DNA from: Paenibacillus sp. sptzw28
Lineage (GTDB): Bacteria > Bacillota > Bacilli > Paenibacillales > Paenibacillaceae
NCBI RefSeq assembly: GCF_019550795.1
Contig: NZ_CP080545.1
Location: 4,932,001-4,996,000 of the forward strand
DNA length: 64,000 nt
Reading direction: 5' to 3'
The notes under the pieces are model-generated. The model ran no database searches. It was given only the letters and a program-made list of their open reading frames with translations, and had not been told where the DNA came from. Of the stretch, positions 44,397 to 58,512 are shown in pieces (the first letter of the stretch is position 1; each line of letters opens with the position of its first letter). The translations under genes were made by a program, and so were the position numbers.

Positions 44397-44888
44397 TTAT
44401 TTTCGCGCGCTACACATCAATTGTTCTTCCCCGGAACTTTCGTTGAACCTGGAGTAATTGCCGAAAACGCCGACGACCGCAAATTTGTCGATCTCGTCCG
44501 CTCCGGTCAGATACAGGGGACCGCTCCTCAGCCAGGCATGAGCGACCATCTCACCTGCTTCATTCCTACCTGTTCCCAAATAAAGCGTACTGCCGATCCG
44601 GCGCCGCTCCAGCATCTTCATCCCGGCAATTGCCATAACCAGACACTTGCTCTCCCACCAGGTATTTCGACTTGCGATATGAATCGCCCGTGCTATTTGC
44701 AGCAGCTCGCTCTCGTTTGTCCGATCGCGGCGGTATGGACTCTCCTCCATCCGGTTGCCCAAAGAAGGCGCGACCTTTGAGAAGGGCATGCTCTTCAGTA
44801 TTCGAGCCCAGCCCAGATACATAAACGCTTCAACCAGCAATTTCCTCATATGAGGCGGCATGGCCAAAAATCTCTTGATTTTTCTCAT
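44397..44888 (-). CDS. Lasso peptide leader peptidase B2 (operon 1)
   Basis: A 163-aa protein of the transglutaminase-like B2 family. Signature residues: C82 in WWESKCLVMAIAGMKMLERR and H117 in MVAHAWLRSGPLYLTGAD, the cysteine-protease pair. It cuts the leader from precursor A before ring closure. GGGCGAG precedes the ATG, 24 bases after the kinase stop. Closely related to the operon 2 copy at 53054 (shared LGWARILK and PFSKVAPSLG). Unlike operon 2, no B1 recognition protein is encoded beside it. Confidence 0.9.
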   Translation of the reverse strand: MRKIKRFLAMPPHMRKLLVEAFMYLGWARILKSMPFSKVAPSLGNRMEESPYRRDRTNESELLQIARAIHIASRNTWWESKCLVMAIAGMKMLERRRIGSTLYLGTGRNEAGEMVAHAWLRSGPLYLTGADEIDKFAVVGVFGNYSRFNESSGEEQLMCSARK

Positions 44889-44912
44889 AAGTCTCGCCCA
44901 AGACCTCTCTGC

Positions 44913-45887
44913 TCAGGAATTGACTTTCACATCTTCCCTGGATTTGGACTGATCCGAAGTTCGTCCACCCTTGATTACGGTATCGATTATGCGGTCTACC
45001 AGCTCATATGCCGTAAAGCCTTCGGCCGGTCTGGATAACCGATAAACATCGATGTTCCCGGCAATATGCGCTGAGGCCGAGAAGTGCCACTGTTCCTGCT
45101 CCAGAAGCGGAATCAACAGATTGCGGTAAGTATGGTTCAATAAGAGCGGGAAACGTTCGAGACTTTGAACGGGATGAATTTCAGCTTCCATTCCTTCCGC
45201 TTTAACAAGCTCGAATACGCCAGCAAAAGGGACCGGTTCCTTACAGAATGTTGAAGCGACAGGTACGGCGTACTTGTTCACTTCCTGATATAACGGATTG
45301 TAGCGGTTCGTTTCCATCCCCAAATGAGTGATGCTGTTCTCCCACAGCTTCTGCTGCGGATAAGACGGTATAATGTCAGGCGGATTATCCGGCGACAGCG
45401 ATACGGCGATGACATCGTCGCTCAGAAGCTGATAGCCGCTGTTTCGGAAAGCGGCGGCAAGCGTTGATTTTCCGGCACCGGATTCGCCGACGAATGCATA
45501 AGCTTTCCCGTTTATGACGACTGCGCTGCCGTGCAAAGGCAGTATTCTCCGCTGCATCAGCAGCGCGCCCATGCATGTTCCAAGCAAATAGAGACGGATC
45601 TTGTTCTCGTCCGCTCCGGCCATGGGAGAGACGGTTATCCTGCTTCCTTCAGCAATGGAGAATAACGCGGTCTCCGGTACATGAAGAAAGATTTGGCCGT
45701 CAGCTGTCCCGTAGAACTTTTGGTAGACCGGTACGTCCTGCCAGGCTTTGGACAGATCGGCCACGACGATTTCCACATCCGGCTCATTCTCCGGCAGATC
45801 CGGTCCCATCAGCTCCGGCAGGACGATTTCACTTACTATCTGAAGTCCGAAGGCTTTATACTTCATCTTTTTGACGGTTGGAATCAT
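44913..45887 (-). CDS. HPr-kinase-like lasso peptide kinase (operon 1)
   Basis: A 324-aa protein with the HPr kinase fold: LLMQRRILPLHGS with H119, P-loop GESGAGKST at 134-142 and the double Asp of LLSDDVIAV (157-158). It matches the kinase of the paeninodin cluster, which phosphorylates the C-terminal Ser of the precursor. Precursor 1 ends in Ser, as required. AGGGTG lies before ATG 45887. It begins 134 bases after the precursor gene, behind a stem-loop. Confidence 0.9.
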   Translation of the reverse strand: MIPTVKKMKYKAFGLQIVSEIVLPELMGPDLPENEPDVEIVVADLSKAWQDVPVYQKFYGTADGQIFLHVPETALFSIAEGSRITVSPMAGADENKIRLYLLGTCMGALLMQRRILPLHGSAVVINGKAYAFVGESGAGKSTLAAAFRNSGYQLLSDDVIAVSLSPDNPPDIIPSYPQQKLWENSITHLGMETNRYNPLYQEVNKYAVPVASTFCKEPVPFAGVFELVKAEGMEAEIHPVQSLERFPLLLNHTYRNLLIPLLEQEQWHFSASAHIAGNIDVYRLSRPAEGFTAYELVDRIIDTVIKGGRTSDQSKSREDVKVNS

Positions 45888-45960
45888 ATTCTTTCACCCT
45901 ATCCTTCACGGCTTTTTAAAGAAGCCCCGGTTATGTGACATTAAAGGCTTGCTTGAGTAT

Positions 45961-45992
45961 GGCCCTTATACAAAGTCGCTTGTATAAAGGCC
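45961..45992 (-). other. Stem-loop between precursor 1 and the kinase gene
   Basis: GGCCCTTATACAA (45961-45973) and TTGTATAAAGGCC (45980-45992) pair over 12-13 bases with a six-base loop. No T run follows, so it is more likely an mRNA-stabilising or processing hairpin than a full terminator. Operon 2 has a related hairpin at the same place. Confidence 0.75.
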
Positions 45993-46021
45993 TAAGTATC
46001 ATTGCTCAATCTGTATAAATA

Positions 46022-46165
46022 TTAGGAGACTGGAGGCGTATCTGTAATGTCAAGGTCGCTCGGGCTAACAAAATCGATATATTTCGTACCGATGCCCAGC
46101 ATGGTGGAGCTTACATTAAGAGTTTCCAATTGCGGCTTCTCCCAAGCTTTTTTGTTGGTTTCCAT
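46022..46165 (-). CDS. Lasso peptide precursor A1, 47 aa
   Basis: Found by reading between genes. AAAGGAGGTGATAACC precedes the ATG. Leader of 22 residues: METNKKAWEKPQLETLNVSS then TM, with W8-x-x-P11-x-L13 in the place of the usual Y-x-x-P recognition motif and Thr at -2. Predicted 25-residue core starts LGIGTKYID, so the ring would join Leu1 to Asp9; the tail FVSPSDLDITDTPPVS ends in Ser25, the expected phosphorylation site. Tyr7 and Ser/Thr residues are possible sulfation sites. It lies between cyclase and kinase genes. The product would resemble paeninodin in plan but not in sequence. Confidence 0.9.
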   Translation of the reverse strand: METNKKAWEKPQLETLNVSSTMLGIGTKYIDFVSPSDLDITDTPPVS

Positions 46166-46185
46166 GGTTATCACCTCCTTTCAGC

Positions 46186-48135
46186 TCACGGATTATAGAA
46201 TTTAGTTAGAAACCTGTAAACAATGACGCTTCGCATCAGGTATCTGATTTCCGGGCTGAAGGCGTCCTCGGTCCGCGGGGAGCTACCGACCTTGGAAAGC
46301 GCCGCTCGGATCTGATTCACGTTCATATAGTGTGATGCAATGGGGTCGTTGCAAAGCGCTCCGACCTCCTCCGTGAAAGGCCGCCATTGCGGAATCATCC
46401 TGTGAACCCAATCTGCCCCCTGCACGCCGCGGATGCGCTGGTTTAATCTGACCTTATCGGGCAAATAACCCGCCGTCGCTCTCCGTATAAGCGCACGGTC
46501 GTAACCATTTTGCACATATTGTTCAAACGGTACGGATAAGCAGAACCGGACGACTCTCGGATCGCAGGTCGGATCCCGTTCCCATATCGAATATTTAAGC
46601 GACAGCTTCGTACCCTTAGTGCCTCTTAAATTGGCAATGGCCAAATTGTGAAGGTGGTTGCTTCTTGCCTCTAAGGCATCTGTTCTTAAGAAGCCGCTTA
46701 AATCGTTATCCCTCTCCTGAAGCTTCGCCATTACATTTGTTTTATGGGCGAAGTCCGGGTGGATTAACCGCGGAACATCCGGCTCGCTGCCCAGCAAGGA
46801 GATCTGAGGGGAGAAGGGCATTGCCTGCTTCCCTATCATCGGCAATAACCGCGCCCTCCGTATCCCTTTTCGTCTGCTGAACAGGTGCAGCTCGCGGTAC
46901 AATTGAATCCATTTGAGCTTTCTTGCAAGGATCGCGTAATAATGGATCGCCGGCCCCCATGAGATTGTGAGGTTGCCTCTCGCCCCGGTTAGCAGGACAC
47001 CGACCCCTTGCTCCTGTGCTTTCTCGAATATCCCCTTGATCCAAAATGAATTTTCAAAAAACTTATACGGCATTTCCAGAAGCTCGAGCCACTCATCAAC
47101 TTCGGATAGCGGGCTGCGGTCTGCAAAGTCCAAATAGTTCTCCTGAATGTTCCCCACATGCTGAACGGTAGCCTGGATGAATGGACTTTCGTCCGCAATT
47201 CGTCCCTTGCCGGTCCAATCCTGAAAATCGTCAGCGGGTACGTAGCTGTATGTATGCAGCCTCTTCCGTTCTTCGCGCAATTCCTTCGCGGCAAAGCTGG
47301 CCACTGCACCCGAGTCCAGGCCCCCGCTTAACGTGGCGCCTACCGGTTTGTATGTCCGAAGGCTTGATCTGATCGCCGTTTGGAATACGTCGCGGAAAGC
47401 TTCGTCATACTCCTCGTTGGATTTCAGCACAAGCTTGTTGTCAGGCGCCAGCGTGCCGCCGTACCTGGAGCTTGTTACATTCCCGTCTTTAACCGTTAGT
47501 GTATGCGCAGGGGGTATTTGGCTAATATTGTTGTACACCGTTGACGCGGTATCCGGTGATTCGAGCATAACGGGTATAGTCATGAACTCCGCCAGCCAGA
47601 GCTCATGAAGCTCCTTCTTTACGCCGGGTAAAGTAAACAGCGGTGAAATCGTCGTGCAGAACGCAAGCCGGCTTGAGTCGCGGTAATAATACAATGTTCG
47701 ATTCCCGAACATATCCCGCGCTCCGAACAGGAGCTTCTCGCGTTCGTCCCATATGACGAAGGCGAAATCACCGATCAGATAATTCGGAGCATTCCGTCCC
47801 CATTTGCGATAGGCGAGAAGGATAAGCTCACTGTCCGTCATCGCTTCGCGGCGGGCTTGCTCGACCTGCAGCCGGGCAAAGAGCTCCTCCCGGTTATCAA
47901 TAATCGCATCCGCCGTGATCGCAAGCCTGCTCGAGGAATCGTAACAGGGCAATCTTTCATTACGGGATTCGGGAGTAGTCCATTGGGCGCGGCACCCGAG
48001 GAAGAGCGGCCCGTTCTGCCAGATACCCGCATAGTCGGCGCGGTAACGCTGCAGATCTTCCATCATTAACCGGCCGTTCTCCTCAAGTGCCGGGTCTTCA
48101 TCGTTAAAGCAAAGAATACCCGCGATGGCGCTCAT
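46186..48135 (-). CDS. Lasso cyclase C (asparagine synthetase homologue, operon 1)
   Basis: A 649-aa protein. The N-terminal Ntn domain begins MSAIAGIL with Ser where glutaminases have the catalytic Cys, so no glutamine use is expected. The synthetase domain has the ATP pyrophosphate loop SGGLDS at 270-275. It adenylates the Asp9 side chain and closes the macrolactam. The ATG overlaps the sulfotransferase stop (ATGA), so the two are translated together. The precursor gene starts 20 bases after its stop. Clear paralogue of the operon 2 cyclase. Confidence 0.92.
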   Translation of the reverse strand: MSAIAGILCFNDEDPALEENGRLMMEDLQRYRADYAGIWQNGPLFLGCRAQWTTPESRNERLPCYDSSSRLAITADAIIDNREELFARLQVEQARREAMTDSELILLAYRKWGRNAPNYLIGDFAFVIWDEREKLLFGARDMFGNRTLYYYRDSSRLAFCTTISPLFTLPGVKKELHELWLAEFMTIPVMLESPDTASTVYNNISQIPPAHTLTVKDGNVTSSRYGGTLAPDNKLVLKSNEEYDEAFRDVFQTAIRSSLRTYKPVGATLSGGLDSGAVASFAAKELREERKRLHTYSYVPADDFQDWTGKGRIADESPFIQATVQHVGNIQENYLDFADRSPLSEVDEWLELLEMPYKFFENSFWIKGIFEKAQEQGVGVLLTGARGNLTISWGPAIHYYAILARKLKWIQLYRELHLFSRRKGIRRARLLPMIGKQAMPFSPQISLLGSEPDVPRLIHPDFAHKTNVMAKLQERDNDLSGFLRTDALEARSNHLHNLAIANLRGTKGTKLSLKYSIWERDPTCDPRVVRFCLSVPFEQYVQNGYDRALIRRATAGYLPDKVRLNQRIRGVQGADWVHRMIPQWRPFTEEVGALCNDPIASHYMNVNQIRAALSKVGSSPRTEDAFSPEIRYLMRSVIVYRFLTKFYNP

Positions 48136-49373
48136 TTCTTCCTCCCGCTATGAATCAGGTAATTGGATGCCCATTGAGAAAGATGACGACCAAATGGGAT
48201 CATCGACTTTAGCCGGTTGATCTTTTTCTTCACCGCGTCCAGCTGGGCAGCCAGATGCTTCTGAGTCGCATAGCTTTTCTCCAACCTTTTCTCGAGCGAG
48301 CGCAGCGTTATTTGCAATTGCAGCACCTGCGGATTAATCATCGTCCGCATATCGCCCGGTTCAGCCTGGAATAGCCGGCCTTCTGCCGGTGCGTCGGTCT
48401 TCATTCGATAGTTCTCTTCCCACCTGCAGCCAGTTGCGCCAGCCAGCTGTCTCGTGCGCATTTGAATCAGTTCCATGTCCGGTTTCATCTCGAAGCTCGC
48501 GCCTGTCAAGCTTTCAGCTTCCGCTAACTGGCGGCTGTATCCAAGTTTGTGGAAGACTTCGGCGCCAAGAACGCGGCAGTACATCTCGATTTCCCGTTTA
48601 TCCAACACTTCCTTCCAGCTGTCAACGGACCCAAGATGCGGCTGTGTATGCTGAGCGACGAACGGATCCCCGACACCCATGCTGTAATACAAATCGGCCT
48701 TGGCTGTATTCATAAAGTCGCCGTACTTATCCAGGCCCTCTTCATAGGTAAGTCCCAGGAACCTGCACAGCATCCGAAGCTCTTCTTCGGGACGTGCAAC
48801 CATGCTCTCATAACTCAGCCGGTAAGCATAAGAGCTCCCCCCGGAGAAGTAATCCATGTACCTGAGCAATCCGACGGTAATATCGATCATCTTAATATCG
48901 AATTTTGGATTGAGCAAATCTTCCTTCAGGTTGAACCTGTCGTTGGTGTCTTGGTAAACCTTCTTGTAAGATGCAATTACGGAGAGCGGATTTCGAATGA
49001 GCCAGATCCGCCGCGAGTGCGGGAAGAGCGCATCCAGAAATTCCAGCAAATAATAATACCTTGGCGATTTGTCCACAACCATATCGGCGCCGCTGCTCTG
49101 CAGCAGGCCGTTATATACTTGAAGGGCGAATGCACGGCAGGCTTGCTCATACGTTTCGCCGGGGAGTACGCCATTAAAGAATTGATTAAGGATGCCGGTG
49201 CCACCGTAAGCGCGATGAGGGGTTAGTTTCATATCGTAGAGGCTCATCAAGAACCACATTTCCTGGGTAGCGAATATTTTGCTGTGATTTTGAAGCATCA
49301 CGGTTGCAAGCGAGCTCCCGCTCCGGGGAGCACATAGCAAGAAGATGAGATTATTGCCGTTTCTGTCGATCAA
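48132..49373 (-). CDS. Sulfotransferase heading lasso operon 1
   Basis: A 413-aa PAPS-dependent sulfotransferase. The 5'-phosphosulfate loop is APRSGSSLAT (R17, S18, G19, S20, S21) and the 3'-phosphate region is IRNPLSVIASYKKVY with the conserved Arg and Ser. The C-terminal 90 residues form a coiled coil (ITLRSLEKRLEKSYATQKHL). Start is TTG 49373 behind GGGGGGA. It overlaps the cyclase gene by four bases, so it belongs to the lasso operon; modification of the lasso peptide at Tyr7 or a Ser/Thr is inferred. The alternative is sulfation of the exopolysaccharide made by the flanking genes. Confidence 0.88.
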   Translation of the reverse strand: MIDRNGNNLIFLLCAPRSGSSLATVMLQNHSKIFATQEMWFLMSLYDMKLTPHRAYGGTGILNQFFNGVLPGETYEQACRAFALQVYNGLLQSSGADMVVDKSPRYYYLLEFLDALFPHSRRIWLIRNPLSVIASYKKVYQDTNDRFNLKEDLLNPKFDIKMIDITVGLLRYMDYFSGGSSYAYRLSYESMVARPEEELRMLCRFLGLTYEEGLDKYGDFMNTAKADLYYSMGVGDPFVAQHTQPHLGSVDSWKEVLDKREIEMYCRVLGAEVFHKLGYSRQLAEAESLTGASFEMKPDMELIQMRTRQLAGATGCRWEENYRMKTDAPAEGRLFQAEPGDMRTMINPQVLQLQITLRSLEKRLEKSYATQKHLAAQLDAVKKKINRLKSMIPFGRHLSQWASNYLIHSGRKK

Positions 49374-49421
49374 TTACGGTCCCCCCTGCTTCCGGGCATG
49401 CGAATGTTTCGGCAGCATTTT

Positions 49422-49447
49422 GCTACTATATGTATCGATTATATCAT
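49422..49447 (-). promoter_or_regulatory. Promoter block of lasso operon 1
   Basis: A 26-base block containing, on the minus strand, TATAAT (49438-49443) followed by GATACATATAGTAGC. It matches the block before operon 2 (57038-57063) at 24 of 26 positions. The start site would lie near 49430, about 57 bases before the TTG. Confidence 0.7.
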
Positions 49448-49600
49448 AAAATATCCATTTACTATTAATAATTATAAAAATTTTATTATTTATTGAAGCA
49501 ATTATGCTCTTATTTGTCTTGTCATCAGCTTTCGTGTTACAATTTGTCTCAAGAAAATCTATGCGATTTTATATTACACTGGGAATAAGGTAGTGATAAT

Positions 49601-50023
49601 TTGAGGATATTTCTGGGAATTCTATGGGGAATCGTGATTTTCGTCTGCACATGTACGGTCAGCTTTACTCTGCTGCTTCGAAATCATTTCATTTATTTCG
49701 TATTTACTCCCCATCCTAATTGGCGGGAGCTGCTCATTTTTCATTTCAGCGATTTCCGTGACAACATCTACTTAATTCAGAAAATAGGACATTTTTCCGG
49801 TTTCTTTATCCTCGCACTGATCCTCTCGAACTTTGGACGGTACAAACCGGGAATCTACGTATCCATCAGTTACGGAATATTTACCGAAATATTGCAGCTG
49901 TTTTTTCTAAGGGACGGCAGAATCGCGGATATGTTCATAGACTCTTTCGGTATTCTGCTGGCTTATGGATTATGCAGACTCTTTCATTCAGTGAGAAGAC
50001 ATCTTTTATTACAACCCAAATGA
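49601..50023 (+). CDS. VanZ-like membrane protein
   Basis: A 140-aa protein with four membrane helices. The family core is seen in YGIFTEILQLFFLRDGRIADMF followed by IDSFGILLAYGL, matching the VanZ E-x-x-Q ... R ... D ... D/N-x-x-G pattern. VanZ-like proteins give low-level resistance to teicoplanin or lipid-targeting antibiotics by an unknown route. Start is TTG 49601 with AAGGTAG ahead. It lies alone on the plus strand between two lasso operons; an immunity role is conceivable but unsupported beyond position. Confidence 0.75.
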   Translation: MRIFLGILWGIVIFVCTCTVSFTLLLRNHFIYFVFTPHPNWRELLIFHFSDFRDNIYLIQKIGHFSGFFILALILSNFGRYKPGIYVSISYGIFTEILQLFFLRDGRIADMFIDSFGILLAYGLCRLFHSVRRHLLLQPK

Positions 50024-50026
50024 AAA

Positions 50027-50067
50027 ATCCCCTTTCACCTCACCAGGATGGTAAAGTGAAAGGGGAT
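50027..50067. terminator. Bidirectional terminator between VanZ-like and ABC exporter genes
   Basis: ATCCCCTTTCAC (50027-50038) pairs with GTGAAAGGGGAT (50056-50067); TTTTTC follows on the minus strand and A-rich sequence precedes. It marks the end of lasso operon 2. Confidence 0.88.
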
Positions 50068-50080
50068 GCCGCGCCGTAAT

Positions 50081-51877
50081 CTACTGATTCGCTTCTGCTT
50101 GATAAGCGAGTAATTGACTGAATGTGCCTTTGCTTTCTTTGGAAAGCTGTTGAAAGCCTCCCTGCTGAATAATTCTGCCCTGCTCCAGAACAAGCACTTG
50201 ATCGGCATTCCGAATGGTGGATAGCCGGTGAGCTATAACAATAATGGTCATCGACCCCTTCAGACGATCGAGCGATTGCTTGATCTTCGCTTCGTTCTCG
50301 GTGTCAAGAGCACTTGTTGCTTCATCCAATACGAGAATAGCCGGTTTTCTTAGTATCGCCCTGGCTAGTACAATACGCTGCCTTTCTCCGCCCGAAAGAC
50401 GGACACCCCGATCACCAATGATTGTATCAAGGCCTTGAGGGAGCTTCCTGACAAACTCATCCGAAGCGGAAAAGGCTAATGCTTCCCAGAGCTGTTCTTC
50501 GCTCGCATTCGGCTCAACCTGCATCAGATTTTCTCTGATGCTTGCATTGAATAGGAAGGGATCCTGCGAAACGTAGCTGACAGAACGTCTTAAGGAATAC
50601 ACATTCTCCGTACTCAGCGGAACGCCGTCTATAATAACCTGGCCCTCCTCCGGCTGCAGGAGTCCGATAAGGATATCGATCAGAGTGCTCTTCCCGGCTC
50701 CGGATTTTCCAACGATCGCGGTCATGGTGTTGGCCGGAATCTTCAGATTAATATCTTCAAGAGCATAAGGTACATTATCCAGGTCGTACCGGAAGTGGAT
50801 ATGACGGCATTCAATGCCCTCTTCGATCCGGATAGGTTTAATGCTTTCATCAAAAAACCTTGATTCCTGCGCTTCCTCGCATTCCCTCTCCAGTTCCCTT
50901 AAACTCTTAAAGGCGGGAATCGTCGAGACTACCTGTTCCCAGCTTGACTGTATGCCTGCAAACCGGGGCCATAACCGGGAAAATATAATAATAATAACAA
51001 TAAGCTGTTCGCCTTTAATATGAAAAATTGTGTTCGATGAATAAACGAACAACGTAATGAGAAGGGCAGCCGCTACTTTATAGAAAAACTGCGAGTTCGA
51101 TTGCAATCTGGCAAACTGGATCATATTAACCTTCATTCGGTCATTTAACGCTTGAAACCATGTAAGATGCAGCTCTTCCAGCCTATTGCTCTTAATATCC
51201 TTAATACCGTTGAAATGTTCGGTAATCCCGCCCATATAGCTCTGTGAGAGCTCGGTCGTATTCCTTCCCAGTCTCTTCGCATTTTTGATGAATTTCCGGG
51301 AAAACAAAGCAAGCACGAACCCGCATACAAGCACGAACGCGGTCAATTCAAACGACAGCCAGAACGCAAAGCCGATCTGGATCACGGTGAAAACAAGCGA
51401 GGTGAATAAAGTCATGAACAAGTAAATCCCTTGGCTGACACGGGCTAACTCGTTCGTCATAATATGATTAAAATCAGACTTCCTTTTCTTAAGAAAGAAA
51501 GACCATTTCGCCTTCATAAGAGCCTGATAAATTTTCGTTCTTAGGTAACCCATAAAGCCTTGTTGAATGGCCATGCTCATATTGGTTTGATTCCGCTGCA
51601 GCCATGCTTGGCCTATAATGAGTACAATGTAAGCAGCAAGGACAAGCGGCAGTTTATATGCGCTCGGAACGGTATTCAGTTTTTCGATGATTGAAGAGAG
51701 GTAGGGGATTCCCCCGGTACTTACATTAAAAACACCGATAAAGCTAAGCATCGGAACTATCAGATAGATTCCGACTCCTTCAAAAAAACTAATCAACACC
51801 ATACCGAGAAGGTTGGAATAGAGCTTGAGTCCGGCGAATACGTGTAATTTTTTGAGGTAATAAACAATATGAGGCAT
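50081..51877 (-). CDS. ABC exporter of lasso operon 2
   Basis: ATG 51877 follows GGAGAGGG and gives 598 aa; the longer open frame runs into the nucleotidyltransferase gene. Six membrane helices (about 1-310) are fused to an ATPase domain with Walker A GKSGAGKST, signature LSGGERQR and Walker B AILVLDEATSALD. It is the D protein of lasso clusters, exporting the mature peptide and giving self-immunity. Operon 1 lacks one, so it may serve both peptides. Eleven bases after the nucleotidyltransferase stop. Confidence 0.9.
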   Translation of the reverse strand: MPHIVYYLKKLHVFAGLKLYSNLLGMVLISFFEGVGIYLIVPMLSFIGVFNVSTGGIPYLSSIIEKLNTVPSAYKLPLVLAAYIVLIIGQAWLQRNQTNMSMAIQQGFMGYLRTKIYQALMKAKWSFFLKKRKSDFNHIMTNELARVSQGIYLFMTLFTSLVFTVIQIGFAFWLSFELTAFVLVCGFVLALFSRKFIKNAKRLGRNTTELSQSYMGGITEHFNGIKDIKSNRLEELHLTWFQALNDRMKVNMIQFARLQSNSQFFYKVAAALLITLFVYSSNTIFHIKGEQLIVIIIIFSRLWPRFAGIQSSWEQVVSTIPAFKSLRELERECEEAQESRFFDESIKPIRIEEGIECRHIHFRYDLDNVPYALEDINLKIPANTMTAIVGKSGAGKSTLIDILIGLLQPEEGQVIIDGVPLSTENVYSLRRSVSYVSQDPFLFNASIRENLMQVEPNASEEQLWEALAFSASDEFVRKLPQGLDTIIGDRGVRLSGGERQRIVLARAILRKPAILVLDEATSALDTENEAKIKQSLDRLKGSMTIIVIAHRLSTIRNADQVLVLEQGRIIQQGGFQQLSKESKGTFSQLLAYQAEANQ

Positions 51878-51888
51878 GATACCCTCTC

Positions 51889-53061
51889 CTATGGTGTTAC
51901 TTGTTGTTTCATGCGCCGCCAAATCCACAATATCGGCCGTAAGGGTACATACAGGAAATGCAGCTGCTTTGGCAAGGGCAATGTCTGTGCATCCCACGAG
52001 CTCGGATACATGAGGCCGACCATATAATTCCATTTTTGATGATTGGATTTTATTGACAGTAAATACCTTTTGTAATGCTTAGTCGGGCTTAAACGCATAA
52101 TTTCTTTTATAAAATCAATCGAGCTTTGGGCTAAACGGTAAGGACGTTTATCCGCAGTCAAGGTTTTCATCTCTTGGCTGAGGGGCGTTTCTATTAACTC
52201 GGAGGCTAATATGAGCGCCTGTCCGGCCAAATCGCTGCAGTGGTATTCTTTCAACAGAGGAATGAGCTTCCCCCAATCCAGTTTGTTTCGCACCATGCGA
52301 TCAATATCAATCAGCCAGCGAAGCCGAAACCAGGCATGACGGGCGCCATGTGAAACAAGATAGAGAAACAAATCTTCATTTCCCGGAAAATAAACCGGAT
52401 AGCTGGTAAGCGAGCTCGTGCTTCTCCGTTCCCACAGCTCTTCGAAAGCGGGTTCTTTGCCCGTTTCCGGATTCAGTCTCCAATGGACTTCGATTTGAAC
52501 CTTCGTTTGGGGGTTATAATAGGAAATGTGATGCTTCTTTACTTTCCAGTCGTCCAAAATGCGGGGTCTTTCATCCGTTATCGTATATCCGGATGAGAGT
52601 AGAATCTTCTCCGCTCTATCAACATCATCAACTGGGATCAGAATGTCCAGGTCTTTAGACGTGCGAAGAGAGATGTCTCCATAAAGAGCTTGTGCGAGGA
52701 CGGGGCCTTTCAGCATCAGCGAACGAATATTATGTTCATCGAATTGTTTGCATATTTTATCCATTTCAGCCGTTATATGCATCATTTGAAAGGTATTCTT
52801 GTTGTAATCCATGTATAGGGCACGGACCACCTCGGCAGGAATAAGATCATTGCCGAATTTGCTCAGCTTTGAATAGACCGTCGGATAGACACGATGATGT
52901 CTGGCCAGTTGGACGAATTGATTCCAGTCCATGTCTTCTTCAGTAAGATAATTCTTGATATGATCCGGTACCTCCGGAGCATCCTTCATCCCGATCAAAG
53001 AAACCAGCAGCTTCAATTCTTTCGAGAATGAACTTAAATCAAGACAGAATCTGTTATCCAT
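51889..53061 (-). CDS. Nucleotidyltransferase-fold protein of lasso operon 2 (NTP_transf_5)
   Basis: A 390-aa protein of the NTP_transf_5 family. The motif LKGPVLAQALYGDISLRTSKDLDILI (split at GD) carries the metal-binding Asp pair D137 and D139; IEVHWRL later supplies another acidic strand. In the pseudomycoidin cluster of Bacillus a homologue acts after the kinase and adds hexose to the phosphorylated lasso peptide, so a similar tailoring step at Ser24 of precursor 2 is likely. It overlaps the B2 gene by eight bases and is 11 bases from the exporter. Confidence 0.85.
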   Translation of the reverse strand: MDNRFCLDLSSFSKELKLLVSLIGMKDAPEVPDHIKNYLTEEDMDWNQFVQLARHHRVYPTVYSKLSKFGNDLIPAEVVRALYMDYNKNTFQMMHITAEMDKICKQFDEHNIRSLMLKGPVLAQALYGDISLRTSKDLDILIPVDDVDRAEKILLSSGYTITDERPRILDDWKVKKHHISYYNPQTKVQIEVHWRLNPETGKEPAFEELWERRSTSSLTSYPVYFPGNEDLFLYLVSHGARHAWFRLRWLIDIDRMVRNKLDWGKLIPLLKEYHCSDLAGQALILASELIETPLSQEMKTLTADKRPYRLAQSSIDFIKEIMRLSPTKHYKRYLLSIKSNHQKWNYMVGLMYPSSWDAQTLPLPKQLHFLYVPLRPILWIWRRMKQQVTP

Positions 53062-53533
53062 TCATTATGCTCCTTTGCTTCTCCTCGAGCCTTAATACTT
53101 TCCCGAATTTGCTGACTACAGTAAACGCATCCATCTCTTCCGCTCCCGTTATATAGAACGGGCCGCTTCTGAGCCAGGCATGCGCAATCATCTTACCGGA
53201 AGAATCTCTTGCCGTACCAAGATACAGCGTGCTCTCAATCCGCCGTCTTTCAAGCATCTTCATTGCCGCGATCGCTTTAACCAGGCACATGCTCTCCCAC
53301 CAGGTATGGCGGCTAATCGTACGAATTACACGCGAAACATTCTGCAATGTCACTTCATCCGATTGATTATGCGTTAAAGGCGTCTCTTCCATCAGAATTC
53401 CGAGTGACGGTGCTACCTTTGAGAAAGGCAGTGCTTTAAGAATACGTGCCCAACCGAGGTACAGGAAGGCCTCCAGAATTAACATCCTCATGGCCCTGCG
53501 CATCGATAGAAACTTCTTCGCTCTCCGCCACAA
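53054..53533 (-). CDS. Lasso peptide leader peptidase B2 (operon 2)
   Basis: A 159-aa B2 protein with C83 in WWESMCLVKAIAAMKMLERR and H118 in MIAHAWLRSGPFYITGAE. It is the paralogue of the operon 1 enzyme and acts with the B1 protein encoded six bases upstream, whose RRE domain delivers the leader. Overlap of eight bases with the nucleotidyltransferase gene shows a tight operon. Confidence 0.92.
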   Translation of the reverse strand: MWRRAKKFLSMRRAMRMLILEAFLYLGWARILKALPFSKVAPSLGILMEETPLTHNQSDEVTLQNVSRVIRTISRHTWWESMCLVKAIAAMKMLERRRIESTLYLGTARDSSGKMIAHAWLRSGPFYITGAEEMDAFTVVSKFGKVLRLEEKQRSIMNG

Positions 53534-53539
53534 TGTCTT

Positions 53540-53842
53540 TTAGCCCTCTTCCCGCGACTCGGTTTGTATTAATCCTTCTTTGTGCAGTAGCTGCAGGAAG
53601 TTTACAACCTGCTCGGAGCATGCTTCCCGGTCGATATCGTATTCAGAGAGAAGCACGGAAGTTATCTGTTCAACCGAGACCGGCGATTCAATAATCTCCC
53701 AGATTCTTCCTCCTACTTGACCAAGATTATAATACTTTCCATTGTTAATGCTCATCATCACTTTTTCGCCATCCATATTGCTGACAAGATTGCCTTTAGC
53801 CTGTAAAACGACCTGTTCGGGGGAAAATGTTTGTGTTTGCAT
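53540..53842 (-). CDS. Lasso peptide leader-binding protein B1 (PqqD-like RRE)
   Basis: A 100-aa protein with the RRE/PqqD fold: an N-terminal beta hairpin (LQAKGNLVSNMDGEKVMMSI), NNGKYYNLGQVGGRIWEII, then a winged-helix end VVNFLQLLHKEGLI. It binds the precursor leader, normally through Tyr-x-x-Pro; here the two leaders have Trp. It is the only B1 in the window although there are two B2 proteins, so it probably serves both operons. It starts five bases after the kinase gene. Confidence 0.92.
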   Translation of the reverse strand: MQTQTFSPEQVVLQAKGNLVSNMDGEKVMMSINNGKYYNLGQVGGRIWEIIESPVSVEQITSVLLSEYDIDREACSEQVVNFLQLLHKEGLIQTESREEG

Positions 53843-53847
53843 CAGCT

Positions 53848-54792
53848 TTATGCTCCTTCCGAAATTGTGTCTAAGATTTGAGCTGCCAAATCATGTGCGG
53901 TAAATCCGGAATCCAGCCGCCGTAATTGATACACAGCAGCATGATTGATAAGATTCAAACAAAATGTAAAGTGCCATTCTTCCAGTTCAAGCAGCGGAAT
54001 GAGGAAATTACGGTAAGTATGGCAATTGAAAATACGAAACCGCTCAAGCTTCTGAATACGGCGAATTTCCGTTTCTCCGTTTTCCAGCTTTAAGACTTCA
54101 AAAACGCCGGCGAGCGGTACGGATTCGGCATAAAATTGGGAAGACACCGGTACCGCGAATTTCTCGACTTCGTGTGTCAACGGGCTGTAAAGATTGGTGT
54201 CCATATCCAGGTTCACCAGACTTTCCTGCCACAGCTTCTGCTGCGGATAAGCCGGCGATACAACCGGGGATGCCCCGTCAGCGGATAAAGATATGGGAAT
54301 GACGTCGTCGCTTAACAGTGGAAAACCCTTGCTAAGAAATGCTGCCGCGAGCGTTGATTTTCCGGCTCCCGATTCACCTACGAATGCGTAAGCCTTCCCG
54401 TCGATAACGACTGCGCTGCCGTGCAAAGGCAGTATTCTCCGCTGCATCAATAACGCTCCCATACAGCTTCCAAGTAAAAATAGACGCACCTTGTTCATGT
54501 CCGAGCCCATCATAGGTGAAACGATTATCCTTTTCCCTTCCTGGATACAGAAGGCTGCCGCCTTGGGGATATGAAAGAAAATTTGATGATCCCGTACTGC
54601 ATAGCTTAAATGATTCGCCTCTGACACTTCATCATTCCAGAATTTCGGTAAATCCGCGATCATAATTTCGATATCCGCGTGAATATCATCATCTCTCGCG
54701 ATAGACAATTCCGGAAGCGGGATATCGCTTGTGAGCCGCAAGCCGAAGGCAGTATAAATCGTTTTCTTCACAGTAGGTATAATCTCTCTCAC
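53848..54792 (-). CDS. HPr-kinase-like lasso peptide kinase (operon 2)
   Basis: A 314-aa kinase with LPLHGS (H124), P-loop GESGAGKST (139-147) and LLSDDVIPI, paralogous to the operon 1 kinase. It should phosphorylate the C-terminal Ser24 of precursor 2. The start is odd: aligned with the operon 1 gene, its ATG is replaced by ATT (ATT-ATA-CCT), so translation must begin at GTG 54792, inside AAGGGTGAG, or at the rare ATT itself. Poor initiation may keep kinase level low. It is separated from the precursor gene by a stem-loop. Confidence 0.88.
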   Translation of the reverse strand: MREIIPTVKKTIYTAFGLRLTSDIPLPELSIARDDDIHADIEIMIADLPKFWNDEVSEANHLSYAVRDHQIFFHIPKAAAFCIQEGKRIIVSPMMGSDMNKVRLFLLGSCMGALLMQRRILPLHGSAVVIDGKAYAFVGESGAGKSTLAAAFLSKGFPLLSDDVIPISLSADGASPVVSPAYPQQKLWQESLVNLDMDTNLYSPLTHEVEKFAVPVSSQFYAESVPLAGVFEVLKLENGETEIRRIQKLERFRIFNCHTYRNFLIPLLELEEWHFTFCLNLINHAAVYQLRRLDSGFTAHDLAAQILDTISEGA

Positions 54793-54828
54793 CCTTATAT
54801 TAATAGAATCATTTCCCTTTAATTAGAG

Positions 54829-54863
54829 GAGCCCTTATACAAAAACGTATTGTATAAGGGCTC
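54829..54863 (-). other. Stem-loop between precursor 2 and the kinase gene
   Basis: GAGCCCTTATACAA (54829-54842) and TTGTATAAGGGCTC (54850-54863) form a perfect 14-bp stem, loop of seven. No T run. The CCTTATACAA / TTGTATAAGG core is shared with the operon 1 hairpin at 45961-45992. Confidence 0.8.
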
Positions 54864-54893
54864 TTCATCCTGCTAAATAACCAATAAGTCAAC

Positions 54894-55031
54894 TTACGAG
54901 TAGATATCAGCGTCAGCAAGCTTACCGTTTACGTACGTGTAGTCAACCTTTGTCAAGCCCCAGCCAGCCATTGTTTCGCTTACGTTAAGTACTTCCAACT
55001 CAGGTGTTTCCCATACTTTTTTGTTTTCCAT
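54894..55031 (-). CDS. Lasso peptide precursor A2, 45 aa
   Basis: Found by reading between genes; GAAGGGAGGTGAGAACT precedes the ATG. Leader of 21 residues: MENKKVWETPELEVLNVSE then TM, with W7-x-x-P10-x-L12 and Thr at -2. Predicted 24-residue core starts AGWGLTKVD, giving an Ala1-Asp9 ring; the tail YTYVNGKLADADIYS ends in Ser24 for phosphorylation. Three Tyr and a Trp make it more aromatic than peptide 1. It follows the cyclase by 28 bases. Confidence 0.92.
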   Translation of the reverse strand: MENKKVWETPELEVLNVSETMAGWGLTKVDYTYVNGKLADADIYS

Positions 55032-55059
55032 AGTTCTCACCTCCCTTCAATAGGTTTGG

Positions 55060-56988
55060 TTATTGCAGCTTCTTAATAAACCGGAATGCGATTAAACTGC
55101 GCATCAGAAACCTTGTATCCGGGTCGAAAGCCTGATCCGGCCTTGGCGATTCCCCGACACTGGCGAGGGAAGTCCTTATCCGGCTTACATTCAACATCCC
55201 GGATGCAGCAGGATCATTACAAAGCTGTTTTATCTCGTCCGTGAACATGCGCCAGGCAGGCTGCAATCGATGCAGCCAGTCTGCCCCTTGAATCCCCCGT
55301 GTGCGTTGATTCAGCCTTACTTTGTCAGGCAAATCATTCTCGGTCGATCTGCGGACCAGCGACCGGCCGATGCCATTGTGCGTATATTGTTCAAAGGGAA
55401 CGGATAAACAGAATCGGACCAATCTCGGATCACACGTCGGATCCCGCTCCGTCAATCCATAGCGCAGCGACATTTTCGCTCCCGCAGTCCCCTGCAGATT
55501 CAAGGCTGCCAGGTTCCGAAAGTAATTTTGCCTCTCCTCGAGCACATTAACCGAAGAAGGAGTGAGTCCTACATCTTGGTTCTGCAGCTTTTCAAATACG
55601 CCCGTTCTCCTTGCGAAATCAGGATGAATTAACGGCTGGACATCGGGTTCGTTAGTAACGGGAGCTTGAATAAAGGGAAAAGCATATTTGCCGATGATAG
55701 GCAGCAAGCGCGACCTCCCGATTCCCGTCTGTCTGCTGAAGAGCTTGAGCTCACGGTAGAACTGAATCCAGCGCAGTTTTTTGAATAATATAGCGTAATA
55801 ATCAATCGCCGAGCCCCATGAAACCGTGTAATTGCCTCTCGCTCCCGTCAGCAGCACCTTCACTTGATGCCGCGCCGCTTCCTCATAAATACCCTTTATC
55901 CAAAACGAATTTTCAAAGTTTTTATAAGGAGCCTCCAGAAGATCGAGTAAATCGTCGATTTCCGAAAGCGGGCTCCTGCCTGCAAGATCGAGGTAATTGT
56001 CCTTAATGTTCCCCACATGCTCGACAGTTGCTTGAATGAACGGCCTCTCGTCAGCTATCGAACCTCGATCTGTCCAATCTACAAAATCATGCACGGGAAT
56101 CGAACTATATGTATGTAATGTTTTCCCATCCTTCAGCAGTTCCTTCGCCGCGATACTAACGACTGCACTTGAATCAAGTCCGCCGCTTAGTGTAGCGCCA
56201 ACCTGCCGATGCGATCGAAGCCGTGATGCTACCGCCTCCTTGAACACTTCGCGAAAAGCCTCGAGATACTCTCCGCTTGACTTCAACTGAAGCTTATCGG
56301 TGTGCACCAATGTCCCATACTGGGAAACTGATACCCTTCCGCCCGCCACTAACACGGAATGAGCCGGAGGAACTTGCATGATGTTGCGATACGCGGTTGA
56401 GAAAACATCAGTTGTCTCAATCATATGAGGGATAGCCAGGAATTCTGAAAACCACGCTTCATGAAGCTCCTTGCTTACGTCCGGCAAATCGAACATAGGC
56501 GAGATTGCTGAACAAAATACAAATCTATGTCTGTCATAATGATAATATAAGCTCCGGCTTCCCAGCAGGTCTCGCGCTCCGAAGAGCAGCTGTTTACCCG
56601 CATCCCAAATCATGAACGCAAAGTCACCGATTAAATACTTTGGAGCATCTTGCCCCCATTTCCGATAAGCAAGCAGTATAAGCGCACTATCCGTCATCTG
56701 TTTTCTTCGGTTAACCTCTACCTCCAGCCGATCGAACAGCTCATTTCGGTTATCGATGATCGCATCTGCCGTTATCGCCAGCATTGTTTCCTCATCGTAA
56801 TAAGGCAACCGCTCATGAACCGACTCAGGTGTAATCCATCCTGCATGGCATCCAAGGAAAGCGTTCCTCTCCTGCCACGTGTCTGTGCAGTCGGCTGGAT
56901 ATTTCATTAAGGCGTCCATAATATATTGGCCGTCTTCGATGGGTACGGGTTCTCCGTCAAATTGAATGATACCGGCTATAGCACTCAT
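55060..56988 (-). CDS. Lasso cyclase C (asparagine synthetase homologue, operon 2)
   Basis: ATG 56988 follows GTGGAGGAAAAA; 642 aa. Begins MSAIAGII, again with Ser in place of the glutaminase Cys. The ATP loop SGGLDS is at 268-273. Closely parallels the operon 1 cyclase along its length (LIGDFAF, LLTGARGN, SLRYG/SLKYS, DPTCDPR, PDKVRLNQR). It closes the ring on precursor 2. It is the first gene of operon 2, with the promoter block at 57038-57063 about 50 bases upstream. Confidence 0.93.
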   Translation of the reverse strand: MSAIAGIIQFDGEPVPIEDGQYIMDALMKYPADCTDTWQERNAFLGCHAGWITPESVHERLPYYDEETMLAITADAIIDNRNELFDRLEVEVNRRKQMTDSALILLAYRKWGQDAPKYLIGDFAFMIWDAGKQLLFGARDLLGSRSLYYHYDRHRFVFCSAISPMFDLPDVSKELHEAWFSEFLAIPHMIETTDVFSTAYRNIMQVPPAHSVLVAGGRVSVSQYGTLVHTDKLQLKSSGEYLEAFREVFKEAVASRLRSHRQVGATLSGGLDSSAVVSIAAKELLKDGKTLHTYSSIPVHDFVDWTDRGSIADERPFIQATVEHVGNIKDNYLDLAGRSPLSEIDDLLDLLEAPYKNFENSFWIKGIYEEAARHQVKVLLTGARGNYTVSWGSAIDYYAILFKKLRWIQFYRELKLFSRQTGIGRSRLLPIIGKYAFPFIQAPVTNEPDVQPLIHPDFARRTGVFEKLQNQDVGLTPSSVNVLEERQNYFRNLAALNLQGTAGAKMSLRYGLTERDPTCDPRLVRFCLSVPFEQYTHNGIGRSLVRRSTENDLPDKVRLNQRTRGIQGADWLHRLQPAWRMFTDEIKQLCNDPAASGMLNVSRIRTSLASVGESPRPDQAFDPDTRFLMRSLIAFRFIKKLQ

Positions 56989-57037
56989 TTTTTCCTCCAC
57001 GGCGATCAATGATGTTCTGATCCGATTTCACTCAACT

Positions 57038-57063
57038 GCTACTATCTGTATCAATTATATCAT
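57038..57063 (-). promoter_or_regulatory. Promoter block of lasso operon 2
   Basis: On the minus strand TATAAT (57054-57059), with TTACAA 16 bases ahead, followed by GATACAGATAGTAGC. Nearly identical (24 of 26) to the operon 1 block at 49422-49447. Confidence 0.75.
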
Positions 57064-57161: not shown

Positions 57162-58496
57162 CTAAAGGGGCAGCGCCGTGCGAAGAATTTCCCCGCGGTT
57201 CATATTCGGCCGACCGATCGAGCTGTAAATGAAGTCTGTAGATGCCAGCTTCTCCTCGGTAAACACATTTCTGCCATCGATCAGAACCGGCTGATTCATG
57301 ATGCTCTGGAGTAAAGACAACTCCACCTGTTCAAACTCCGGCCACTCCGTTAAGAGGCAAAGCGCATCGGCGCCGGATGCCGCTTGAAGGGCATCTTCAC
57401 ACCATGTAATGGAGGCGTGATCGACCCACTGCCGGAAATTCGCCGTTGCAATCGGGTCATACGCGCGAATTTTAGCGCCTCGCTGCACGAGCTCATGAAT
57501 AATTTCAATCGCTGGAGCATCCCGGACATCATCCGTGTTCGGTTTGAAGGCAAGCCCCCAGATTGCAATCGTCCGATTTGAGAAGGAACCAAATATCGTT
57601 TCCAGCTTGCTGATAATGCTGAAGCGCTGATCGCGGTTAACATCCACAACCGACTTCAACAGCTTGAACTCGTAATCAACATTACCGGCGATTTGGATAA
57701 GCGCCTGCGTGTCTTTCGGGAAACATGACCCGCCGTATCCGATACCCGCCTTAAGAAACGAATGTCCGATTCGATGGTCGAAGCCCATGCCTTCCGCCAC
57801 ATTCGTCACATCTGCGCCTACTTTCTCACAAATGTTCGCTATTTCATTAATAAATGATATTTTGGTGGCGAGGAAAGCATTCGAAGCATATTTGATCATT
57901 TCCGCGCTGCGAATATCCGTTACAACGATCTTATCGGACAGCGGCCTATGAAGTTCGGCAATTCGCTCCGCTGCCGCTTCACATTCCGTACCGATCACGA
58001 CCCGGTCCGGGTTGAACGTATCCTTAATTGCCGAACCTTCCCGCAGGAATTCCGGGACTGAGACAATATCGAACGGATGATTCGTCAGCTTGGAAATCAG
58101 CTGCTTGATCCGATGATTCGTTCCGACAGGCACCGTGCTTTTCGTGACGACAATTTTATACCCGTTCATCGATTGAGCGATATCATGAGCAACCTGCTCG
58201 ATAAAGCTCAGATTAGCTTCCCCGTTCGGAAGCGACGGTGTTCCCACCGCAATGATGATAATGTCCGATTGCTGTACGGCATCAAGCAAGTCCGTTGTGA
58301 AGGAGAGCCGTCCTTCTGATGCGTTCTTGACCAGAAGGTCCTGCAGTCCCGGCTCATATATAGGCACTTCGCCGTTACGAAGCATTTCGATTTTATGTTC
58401 CATTTTATCGACACAAATGACCTGGTTTCCGAGTTCCGAGAAACATACCCCCGAAACTAACCCGACATACCCTGTACCAATAACAGCAATTTTCAT
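57162..58496 (-). CDS. UDP-glucose 6-dehydrogenase (second copy)
   Basis: ATG 58496 follows GGAGAGAA; 444 aa. NAD motif GTGYVGLVSGVCFSELGN, catalytic Cys in GIGYGGSCFPKDTQAL, and AEMIKYASNAFLATKISFINE. Same reaction as the 39003 copy: UDP-glucose to UDP-glucuronate. It is 16 bases behind manC and part of the main sugar-nucleotide operon, while the first copy is with the LCP and PilZ genes. The copies differ most in the central NAD-to-UDP linker and at the C-terminus. Confidence 0.93.
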   Translation of the reverse strand: MKIAVIGTGYVGLVSGVCFSELGNQVICVDKMEHKIEMLRNGEVPIYEPGLQDLLVKNASEGRLSFTTDLLDAVQQSDIIIIAVGTPSLPNGEANLSFIEQVAHDIAQSMNGYKIVVTKSTVPVGTNHRIKQLISKLTNHPFDIVSVPEFLREGSAIKDTFNPDRVVIGTECEAAAERIAELHRPLSDKIVVTDIRSAEMIKYASNAFLATKISFINEIANICEKVGADVTNVAEGMGFDHRIGHSFLKAGIGYGGSCFPKDTQALIQIAGNVDYEFKLLKSVVDVNRDQRFSIISKLETIFGSFSNRTIAIWGLAFKPNTDDVRDAPAIEIIHELVQRGAKIRAYDPIATANFRQWVDHASITWCEDALQAASGADALCLLTEWPEFEQVELSLLQSIMNQPVLIDGRNVFTEEKLASTDFIYSSIGRPNMNRGEILRTALPL

Positions 58497-58512
58497 TTCT
58501 CTCCGCTCCCGT

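Follow-up and report, generated by a model that had tools for sequence, protein, structure and literature searches.

The window analysed here, a stretch of 64,000 nucleotides from Paenibacillus sp. sptzw28 (NZ_CP080545.1, positions 4,932,001 to 4,996,000), contains two neighbouring lasso peptide operons of the paeninodin type (Table 1), with domains assigned by Pfam and NCBIfam profile searches. Operon 2 is complete and ordered cyclase (C), precursor (A), kinase (K), B1, leader peptidase (B2), nucleotidyltransferase (NT), and ABC exporter, while operon 1 consists of a sulfotransferase (ST), C, A, K, and B2. It lacks B1, NT, and an exporter, all three of which are carried by its close relatives L032 and L033. 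Both operons are set within a polysaccharide locus, whose genes include those for UDP-glucose dehydrogenase, O-antigen ligase, and LytR-CpsA-Psr proteins. The initial annotation had proposed twin operons that share cyclase, kinase, and B2 and differ in their tailoring genes (ST in one; nucleotidyltransferase, B1, and exporter in the other), and this layout is confirmed by the profile matches, those of the kinases lying below the Pfam gathering score. The hairpins of the two A-K gaps have similar stem sequences. The terminator-like pattern found behind the exporter occurs at 12 sites in the region versus 12.9 in shuffled sequences, and alone it is no evidence. The exporter probably starts near 51877; its listed frame, from 52033, reaches into the nucleotidyltransferase gene (judged by eye). 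A search among plasmids returned no near match to the 12.7-kb stretch.

Table 1. Features of the two lasso peptide operons (coordinates refer to the window)
Feature	Operon	Coordinates	Strand	Description
Leader peptidase B2	1	44397..44888	-	NF033537 91.3 bits (cut-off 33)
Kinase K1	1	44913..45887	-	HPr-kinase-like; PF07475 1.7e-5, below gathering score; P-loop GESGAGKST and SDD
RNA hairpin, A1-K1 gap	1	45961..45992	-	63-nt stretch, -19.7 kcal/mol, z -4.5; no U tract
Precursor A1	1	46022..46165	-	47 aa; core LGIGTKYIDFVSPSDLDITDTPPVS; NF033524 8.1e-13, 47.9 bits
Core Ser12 codon of A1	1	46064..46066	-	Predicted O-sulfation site, from Ser/Thr12 correlation with ST
Cyclase C1	1	46186..48135	-	Asn synthase-like macrolactam synthetase; NF033535 409 bits (below cut-off 525), best NCBIfam match
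Sulfotransferase (ST), gene 1	1	48132..49373	-	413 aa, PAPS-type; PF13469 E=1.8e-28; 4-nt overlap with cyclase start
Terminator-like hairpin 3' of exporter	between operons	50027..50067	-	19-pair stem, T tail
ABC exporter	2	50081..51877	-	PF00005 9.6e-34, PF00664 3.3e-15
Nucleotidyltransferase (NT), NTP_transf_5	2	51889..53061	-	PF14907 3.3e-69; PsmN-like by analogy
Leader peptidase B2	2	53054..53533	-	NF033537 106 bits (cut-off 33)
B1 (RRE)	2	53540..53842	-	NF033536 133 bits (cut-off 80); PbaB1 structure 9x90 4.4e-29
Kinase K2	2	53848..54792	-	HPr-kinase-like; PF07475 9.9e-6, below gathering score
RNA hairpin, A2-K2 gap	2	54826..54866	-	74-nt stretch, -26.2 kcal/mol, z -5.0
Precursor A2	2	54894..55031	-	45 aa; core AGWGLTKVDYTYVNGKLADADIYS; NF033524 1.1e-13, 50.6 bits
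Cyclase C2	2	55060..57009	-	NF033535 412 bits (below cut-off 525)

Both predicted precursor genes are real: their products exceed the 27-bit cut-off of the "paeninodin family lasso peptide" model NF033524, and a Shine-Dalgarno-like stretch precedes each ATG (by eye). The leaders share a WxxPxLExL motif with Thr at -2 (WEKPQL...T and WETPEL...T), and the claimed Thr, Asp9, and C-terminal Ser are seen by eye in A1 and A2. An HPr-kinase homologue (Pfam match below gathering score) accompanies a C-terminal Ser in each operon; discrete B1 and B2 are both encoded in operon 2, and B2 alone of the two in operon 1. The cyclases do not reach the cut-off of NF033535, a model for lasso cyclases in general, but the runner-up models score only 166 and 157 bits, far below it. 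Linear polyphosphorylated peptides (LPP), which have a YxxP leader, an SpI-like peptidase, and no cyclase, were rejected, as WxxP leaders and cyclases are found here.

That the precursors were unannotated is doubtful, since a public protein set already contains proteins of 47 and 45 aa identical to them. Their cores match none of the characterised products encountered, as had been supposed, but close annotated homologues exist: P. solisilvae, P. oenotherae, and P. tarimensis have relatives that carry the family name, and A1 shares 82% identity with a P. solisilvae precursor over 94% of the length. Related cyclases often have such a precursor next to them, 220 cyclase genes being directly followed by a homologous one (208 related loci plus the window). 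As similar cores occur near related cyclases in other Paenibacillus, A1 and A2 are, judged by sequence, new members of a known family and not products of recent tandem duplication; the latter was rejected because counterpart enzymes share only 58-62% identity between the operons (C1 and C2 61%, K1 and K2 58%). C1 groups with ST-linked cyclases, next to which homologues of A1 are also encoded, in a different part of the cyclase tree from C2. The operons are therefore of different lineage, each cyclase being paired with its own precursor. Members of the group often have twin or shared modules.

The comparison set comprised about 190 related operons, several genus regions duplicating named loci (e.g., L036/L123 and L034/L131), and included the core AGPGTSTPDAFQPDPDEDVHYDS of L229, which we take to be that of paeninodin. 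A fixed rule (15 residues after the leader Trp or Tyr) set where each core was cut. The 220 cyclase-precursor pairs gave 173 modules distinct by core and ST state, of which 172 were kept, six with YxxP-leader precursors. L208 was left out for its short cyclase; four of its genes (ST, cyclase, NT, and exporter) are broken into two frames each, and it was scored by rule as ST-less despite the split ST, its core having Thr12. Position 12 of L054 was scored as Pro and is truly Gln, which leaves the count unaffected, and the short ST remnant of L104 was counted as ST in the gene-run, operon-content, and APS kinase counts.

Two characterised systems resemble the operons. Passages on paeninodin from Paenibacillus dendritiformis C454 (PMC8498205, PMC9266682, PMC5067487) describe a split B1/B2 and a kinase whose substrate is the linear precursor, at its C-terminal Ser; the core gene set, kinase, and split peptidase are the same here, but the cores differ, and operon 1 adds a sulfotransferase and lacks B1. 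In pseudomycoidin (Bacillus pseudomycoides DSM 12442), a hexose on phospho-Ser is reported to depend on a nucleotidyltransferase; a kinase and a nucleotidyltransferase are likewise combined in operon 2 and not in operon 1, a likeness by gene content. By analogy with what is reported for PadeK, the kinases would act on the linear precursors and phosphorylate their C-terminal Ser, and the nucleotidyltransferase would, like PsmN, lead to a hexose on the A2 product.

The operon 1 sulfotransferase has a P-loop and 3'-phosphate-binding residues within a domain (PF13469) typical of PAPS sulfotransferases. Among 93 aligned ST sequences, PRSGSS (16-21, the P-loop), E38, DKSP (101-104), R127, and S135 are at least 97% conserved; the roles of the single residues are presumed. 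The nearest solved chains are those of the CurM ST (4gbm, 3.1e-19; 4gox, 2.8e-16), CurM-type enzymes scoring above tyrosine sulfotransferases among the solved relatives. C and A are present in 93 of the 94 ST gene runs, and L253 supplies what the remaining one lacks; in the set found via ST or B2 instead of the cyclase, the same holds for 76 of 77 runs plus the L253-completed one. Most of these operons also have K and NT. No lasso gene accompanies the ST remnant L251 within its 10-kb stretch, and one distant match (G049) forms a domain within a large protein. The enzyme is a member of a lasso-linked family. The surrounding polysaccharide genes raise the alternative that it acts on exopolysaccharide and is linked to lasso genes by chance or co-regulation, which is very unlikely given that ST is the first gene of the operon and overlaps the cyclase, that its relatives reside in lasso operons, and that it tracks a core residue (see below). 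According to a review (PMC8498205), Zhu et al. (2016) noted Firmicutes lasso clusters that begin with a putative sulfotransferase gene, as operon 1 does; the review passage assigns the enzyme neither a function nor a site and mentions neither a correlation with the core nor a linked APS kinase. No report of a sulfated lasso peptide was found in the literature searched.

An APS kinase gene, whose product helps to make the sulfate donor, was found near 72 of 93 ST loci versus 0 of 115 ST-less loci, with unequal flanks. These kinases were found by similarity to one Pfam-confirmed protein, and three of the 72 are fragments. As the ST-less control stretches (L210-L249) extend only ~2 kb past B2, the fair comparison is that of the 73 named loci longer than 18 kb, with similar flanks: 9/15 ST versus 0/58 ST-less loci, two of the 73 (L034 and L035) coming from one genome and the Fisher p ignoring kinship. 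No linked APS kinase is present in the window, and the single copy in the genome is located ~1.95 Mb from the operons.

Presence of the ST is correlated with a hydroxyl residue at core position 12, Ser or Thr being found in 58/58 distinct ST-linked cyclase-precursor modules (e.g., Thr12 in AGTGYRQIDWVTVHDADLYDPTS) versus 5/114 others, and two of the five exceptions retain ST remnants. The ST-linked cores share the motif D9-x-[VIM]-[ST]12-x-x-D15-x-D17, with D17 in 57/58. The ST might instead modify another group on the same peptide, i.e., the C-terminal Ser, its phosphate or hexose, or a Tyr, which is unlikely. All 58 cores end in Ser, K and NT are common in ST operons, and A1 contains Tyr7; however, the C-terminal Ser also occurs in 114/115 ST-less cores and so does not track ST, and position 12 is the only one among positions 1-19 (from the N terminus) with Ser/Thr in all 58. 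Absence of NT from operon 1 speaks against hexose, and Tyr sulfation as a general rule was rejected, 3/58 ST-linked cores having no Tyr. In the most distant ST operon (L209/L253), which was held out, the Ser/Thr-rich core HGAGGGFDGTTISAS also has no Tyr; here the prediction failed by absolute position (Ile12) and held by distance from the likely ring Asp (Asp8, Thr11).

Folding or target binding could also be what preserves Ser/Thr12, D15, and D17 in this class of cores, independently of ST, and the broken ST of three loci (L075, L213, and L104/L250), whose cores yet retain Ser12, suggests that the residue may be kept for other reasons. D15 and D17 are likewise retained in the ST-less sisters L243-L245, but exactly position 12 is Lys there, and it is Phe, Tyr, or Val in other nearest ST-less cores. 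Moreover, the nine changes at position 12 among the ST rows are all between Ser and Thr, D15 being unchanged throughout; conservation for folding or binding is thus somewhat unlikely. Only five ST changes occur in the cyclase tree, and the three independent pairs on supported branches (two agree, none opposes, one shows no difference) are too few for significance, so that the correlation is suggestive and not proven. It points to O-sulfation of Ser12 in LGIGTKYIDFVSPSDLDITDTPPVS, together with phosphorylation of its C-terminal Ser.

The K1-B2 gap of operon 1 is 24 nt long and contains no B1. B1 of operon 2 is the single PqqD-family match found in the genome, and a B1 hidden elsewhere was not found in three genome searches. 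According to a passage of PMC5067487, B2 of the paeninodin system does not cleave without B1, and operon 1 would therefore depend on B1 in trans; pseudomycoidin is reported to form without leader and leader peptidase, which suggests that B1 might not be strictly needed. B1-less operons recur in 10 of 191 gene runs with C and A, in addition to operon 1, which had been counted as one run with operon 2 under the rule for joining runs. At least one B1 above the cut-off was found in the genome of all ten B1-less cyclase units searched (window, L048, L087, L098, L107, L121, L125, L135, L142, and L143). It is therefore likely that operon 1 shares the B1 of operon 2 for its leader processing, and perhaps it also uses the exporter. 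The absence of B1, NT, and exporter would equally be expected if operon 1 were decaying, made no peptide, and had lost these genes first; with its five remaining genes open and matching their families, A1 so close to the P. solisilvae precursor, and B1-less ST operons of this kind in two other genomes (L121 and L125), decay is quite unlikely. The nearest solved B1 is PbaB1 of P. alginolyticus; PMC13381572, on the LPP and PbaB1 systems of that species, describes lasso operons in capsule loci, with WxxP deciding RRE binding, and shows how two RREs avoid cross-talk, whereas here both lasso operons appear to rely on a single RRE. If B1 is shared, incomplete-looking RiPP operons could be expressed, and mining rules requiring a local B1 would miss real clusters.

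From the observed genes, motifs, linkage, and correlation we infer every chemical step of the proposed mechanism. The operon 1 ST would use PAPS as donor to sulfate Ser12, which lies three residues beyond the ring Asp9, either before or after leader removal by B1-B2 and cyclisation by C1. This explanation as a whole, with twin operons of different lineage, a shared B1, and an ST acting on Ser12, is rather probable. Belief and doubt are evenly balanced for the wider proposal of a lasso subfamily common in Paenibacillaceae that is O-sulfated at Ser/Thr (ring Asp + 3) by a dedicated operon ST, often fed by an APS kinase, and here with B1 shared in trans. To our knowledge, Ser/Thr O-sulfation of a bacterial ribosomal peptide is unusual; if true, it would be a new tailoring reaction of lasso peptides within the literature searched. 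Reaction, site, donor supply, and family-wide motif are now specified so that they can be tested directly. For the A1 lasso, the calculated neutral monoisotopic masses are 2631.332 unmodified, 2711.289 with SO3, 2711.298 with HPO3, and 2791.255 with both. The two additions, sulfate and phosphate, are only 9.5 mDa apart, about 3.5 ppm at this mass, and "+80 Da" lasso products hence need high-resolution mass spectrometry.

The twin lasso peptide operons proposed in the initial annotation are present at the places it assigned to them, both on the minus strand. Both precursors, A1 of operon 1 and A2 of operon 2, score above the cut-off of the NCBIfam model NF033524 ('paeninodin family lasso peptide'), and both operons are new members of this family. 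What is new within the family is the layout of operon 1, without the leader-binding (RRE) protein B1 and with a sulfotransferase; the resulting site prediction is sharp and testable.

Genes of the two lasso peptide operons (window coordinates)
Feature	Position	Strand	Supporting match
Operon 1 sulfotransferase	48132-49373	-	PF13469, 1.8e-28
Operon 1 cyclase C1	46186-48135	-	lasso cyclase model, 409 bits (below curated cut-off of 525)
Operon 1 precursor A1	46022-46165	-	NF033524, 47.9 bits (cut-off 27)
Operon 1 kinase	44913-45887	-	Pfam match below Pfam's cut-off
Operon 1 leader peptidase B2	44397-44888	-	Pfam and NCBIfam
Operon 2 cyclase C2	55060-57009	-	lasso cyclase model, 412 bits (below curated cut-off of 525)
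Operon 2 precursor A2	54894-55031	-	NF033524, 50.6 bits (cut-off 27)
Operon 2 kinase	53848-54792	-	Pfam match below Pfam's cut-off
Operon 2 B1	53540-53842	-	NF033536, PF05402
Operon 2 B2	53054-53533	-	Pfam and NCBIfam
Operon 2 nucleotidyltransferase	51889-53061	-	NTP_transf_5
Operon 2 ABC exporter	50081-51877	-	Pfam

A1 is 82% identical over 94% to a relative from P. solisilvae (core AGKGTKYIDFVSPSDLDITDTPPVS) and has a further relative in P. oenotherae, while A2 is 88% identical over 96% to one from P. tarimensis. No characterised product was found to match the cores; the three relatives, however, already bear the NCBI name paeninodin family lasso peptide, so the cores are not new to annotation. 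The twin operons are enclosed by an exopolysaccharide locus (41641-44300 and 57162-63999) with LytR-CpsA-Psr, O-antigen ligase, UDP-glucose dehydrogenase and nucleotidyl transferase/mannose-6-P isomerase genes (Pfam), as well as dTDP-rhamnose-type genes and a flippase recognized by eye; a passage of PMC13381572 places other lasso clusters likewise inside such loci. A small VanZ-like gene (PF04892, 49601-50023, plus strand) lies between both operons, and in the related locus L143 a VanZ-like match also adjoins a second cyclase.

The comparative set comprised 79 named loci (the best 79 of 280 in a cyclase search) and 129 further regions (L121-L249) from searches of 22 genus genomes and 295 family-drawn genomes, the latter queried with the sulfotransferase and B2 (for B2, among the matches listed); some genomes are counted twice, once named and once under a sample handle (G). 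Annotating these 208 loci and the window with profile HMMs derived from the window's own proteins yielded 191 gene runs that include both a cyclase and a precursor. Among the frequent layouts are ST-C-A-K-B1-B2-NT-ABC (55 runs; ST, sulfotransferase; C, cyclase; A, precursor; K, HPr-kinase-like kinase; NT, nucleotidyltransferase; ABC, exporter), C-A-K-B1-B2-NT-ABC (31), C-A-K-B1-B2-ABC (25), and the double operon ST-C-A-K-B1-B2-NT-C-A-K-ABC (15), whose second C-A-K unit brings neither a B1 nor a B2. It is common in this lasso group for modules to be twinned or shared. A recent duplication of the window's pair is ruled out, since in the cyclase tree (FastTree) C1 falls among ST-linked cyclases and C2 in a separate clade with cores such as AGFGLTKVDFTYVNGKLVDADIYS, and the enzymes of the two operons are 58-62% identical.

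The nearest solved relatives of the sulfotransferase are of the CurM type (4gbm, 3.1e-19; 4gox, 2.8e-16), with tyrosine sulfotransferases ranking behind (best 3.6e-5). CurM-type enzymes sulfate aliphatic alcohols. Among 93 aligned family members, conservation of the P-loop PRSGSS, E38, DKSP, R127 and S135 is 97% or higher. The 295-genome search gave matches in 76 genomes at E ≤ 1e-10; 79 rows were judged full or near-full, and with the window and G006:C35 left out, 77 were examined. Cyclase and precursor lie within the fetched stretch for 76 of these, the exception, L209, being completed in L253. The resulting divergent operon (L209 4319-10768 plus L253 1045-3281) reads APS kinase-ST-K-B1-B2-NT/ABC fusion-C-A, and its 15-residue core, HGAGGGFDGTTISAS, likely forms an Asp8 ring. 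The other rows comprise the second halves of matches that were split, a domain within a 3512-aa frame (G049) and two remnants: G302 (L250) adjoins a lasso operon, and the 10-kb stretch of G202 (L251) contains no lasso genes.

Core position 12, counted from the N terminus, is Ser or Thr in 70/70 distinct precursors of ST modules. In a reduced set of 172 modules this holds for 58/58 with ST vs 5/114 without; with duplicates kept, the counts are 92/92 vs 6/128, the sixth case being L208, scored ST-less by rule because its genes are split. Among the five exceptions, L075 and L213 carry sulfotransferase remnants before the cyclase, and L061, L069 and L072 have unlike cores. Along the tree, ST rows show nine changes at position 12, all between Ser and Thr, none at D15 and one at D17. 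The nearest ST-less cores carry Lys12 (AGVGTRYIDFVKAGDFDVTDD), Phe12 (AGVGTKYIDYIFVDKDFDITD) and Tyr12 (AGFGLTKVDFTYVNG); Tyr is absent from 3/58 ST cores. Against the link, however, ST changes only five times on the cyclase tree, Ser12 persists in three broken-ST loci (L075, L213 and L104/L250), and the distant L253 core has Ile12. Independent pairs on supported branches (n=3, where significance is unreachable) comprise two that agree, none that oppose and one without difference.

An APS kinase homologue occurs in 72/93 ST loci (three as fragments) vs 0/115 ST-less loci; restricting the comparison to loci of comparable flank length (73 named ones above 18 kb) gives 9/15 vs 0/58 (Fisher p 5e-8, uncorrected for kinship). 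As 22/22 genus genomes contain APS kinase, many of the linked genes are additional copies. PAPS supply for operon 1 is possible but not local, because the sole APS kinase copy in the window's genome is unlinked, ~1.95 Mb away. According to a review (PMC8498205), some Firmicutes lasso clusters were already observed in 2016 to begin with a putative sulfotransferase gene. No sulfated lasso peptide was found in titles and abstract openings covering part of the matching lasso and RiPP sulfation literature, nor, under the terms checked, in sections of a 2026 review of lasso modifications (PMC13352647); another such review, PMC9266682, has no words beginning 'sulfo' or 'sulfate'.

Operon 1 has a kinase-B2 gap of 24 nt and no B1. 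Protein search, NF033536 and PF05402 (PqqD family) each find a single B1 in the genome (6.10 Mb, single contig, completeness 96.73), the same operon 2 gene. B1 is absent from 10/191 runs, plus operon 1 of the window; four B1-less operons (operon 1, L121, L125, L135) retain their own B2. One or more B1 genes above cut-off occur elsewhere in the genome in 10/10 cases searched (window, L048, L087, L098, L107, L121, L125, L135, L142, L143); the L098 run includes a B1 belonging to another, upstream operon. Two further loci, L072 and L230, have a B1 in a neighbouring operon of the same stretch. In the paeninodin system, B2 cleavage required B1, according to part of PMC5067487. The operon 2 B1 matches the PbaB1 structure 9x90 (4.4e-29) and retains the YYNLG stretch, including the glycine tied to paeninodin-type selectivity in a passage of PMC13381572, and WxxPxLExL is common to both leaders. 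We infer that one B1 serves both operons. The C-A-K-B1-ABC operons L124, L127 and L146 have B1 but lack B2 in the run and, if active, must borrow a leader peptidase; their gene content suggests that B2 may be shared likewise. The literature search found no paper joining lasso peptide, B1 protein and action in trans.

In the proposed order, the operon 2 B1 would first bind the A1 leader. The kinase would phosphorylate Ser25 of the linear precursor, an activity reported for PadeK (PMC9266682 and PMC8498205), and the sulfotransferase would sulfate Ser12. B2 would cut off the leader after Thr-Met, C1 would join Leu1 to Asp9, and the product might leave via the operon 2 transporter or another. A2 would be phosphorylated as well, and the analogy of pseudomycoidin suggests its glycosylation through the NTP_transf_5 protein.

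Directly 3' of each precursor lies a strong hairpin (45961-45992 and 54826-54866); the two are similar to each other, both having stems of 14 pairs and lacking a U tract. By mononucleotide shuffles, 86/174 precursor-kinase gaps in relatives have z ≤ -3, and the window's two give -4.3 and -2.0. A structured gap may raise precursor relative to enzyme levels. Just upstream of A1, within the end of the cyclase gene, is a promoter-like match, TTTACA-17-TATAAT (11/12; 46192-46220); sites of this kind are no more numerous in the region than in shuffled sequence. In L147, a paeninodin-like leader with a very Gly/His-rich core (8181-8546) belongs to a run with K, B1, B2, NT and ABC and no cyclase match. 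Tyr, an unusual first ring residue in lasso peptides, starts 15/58 ST-linked cores (YGKG...; L034, L036-L038, L042 and kin).
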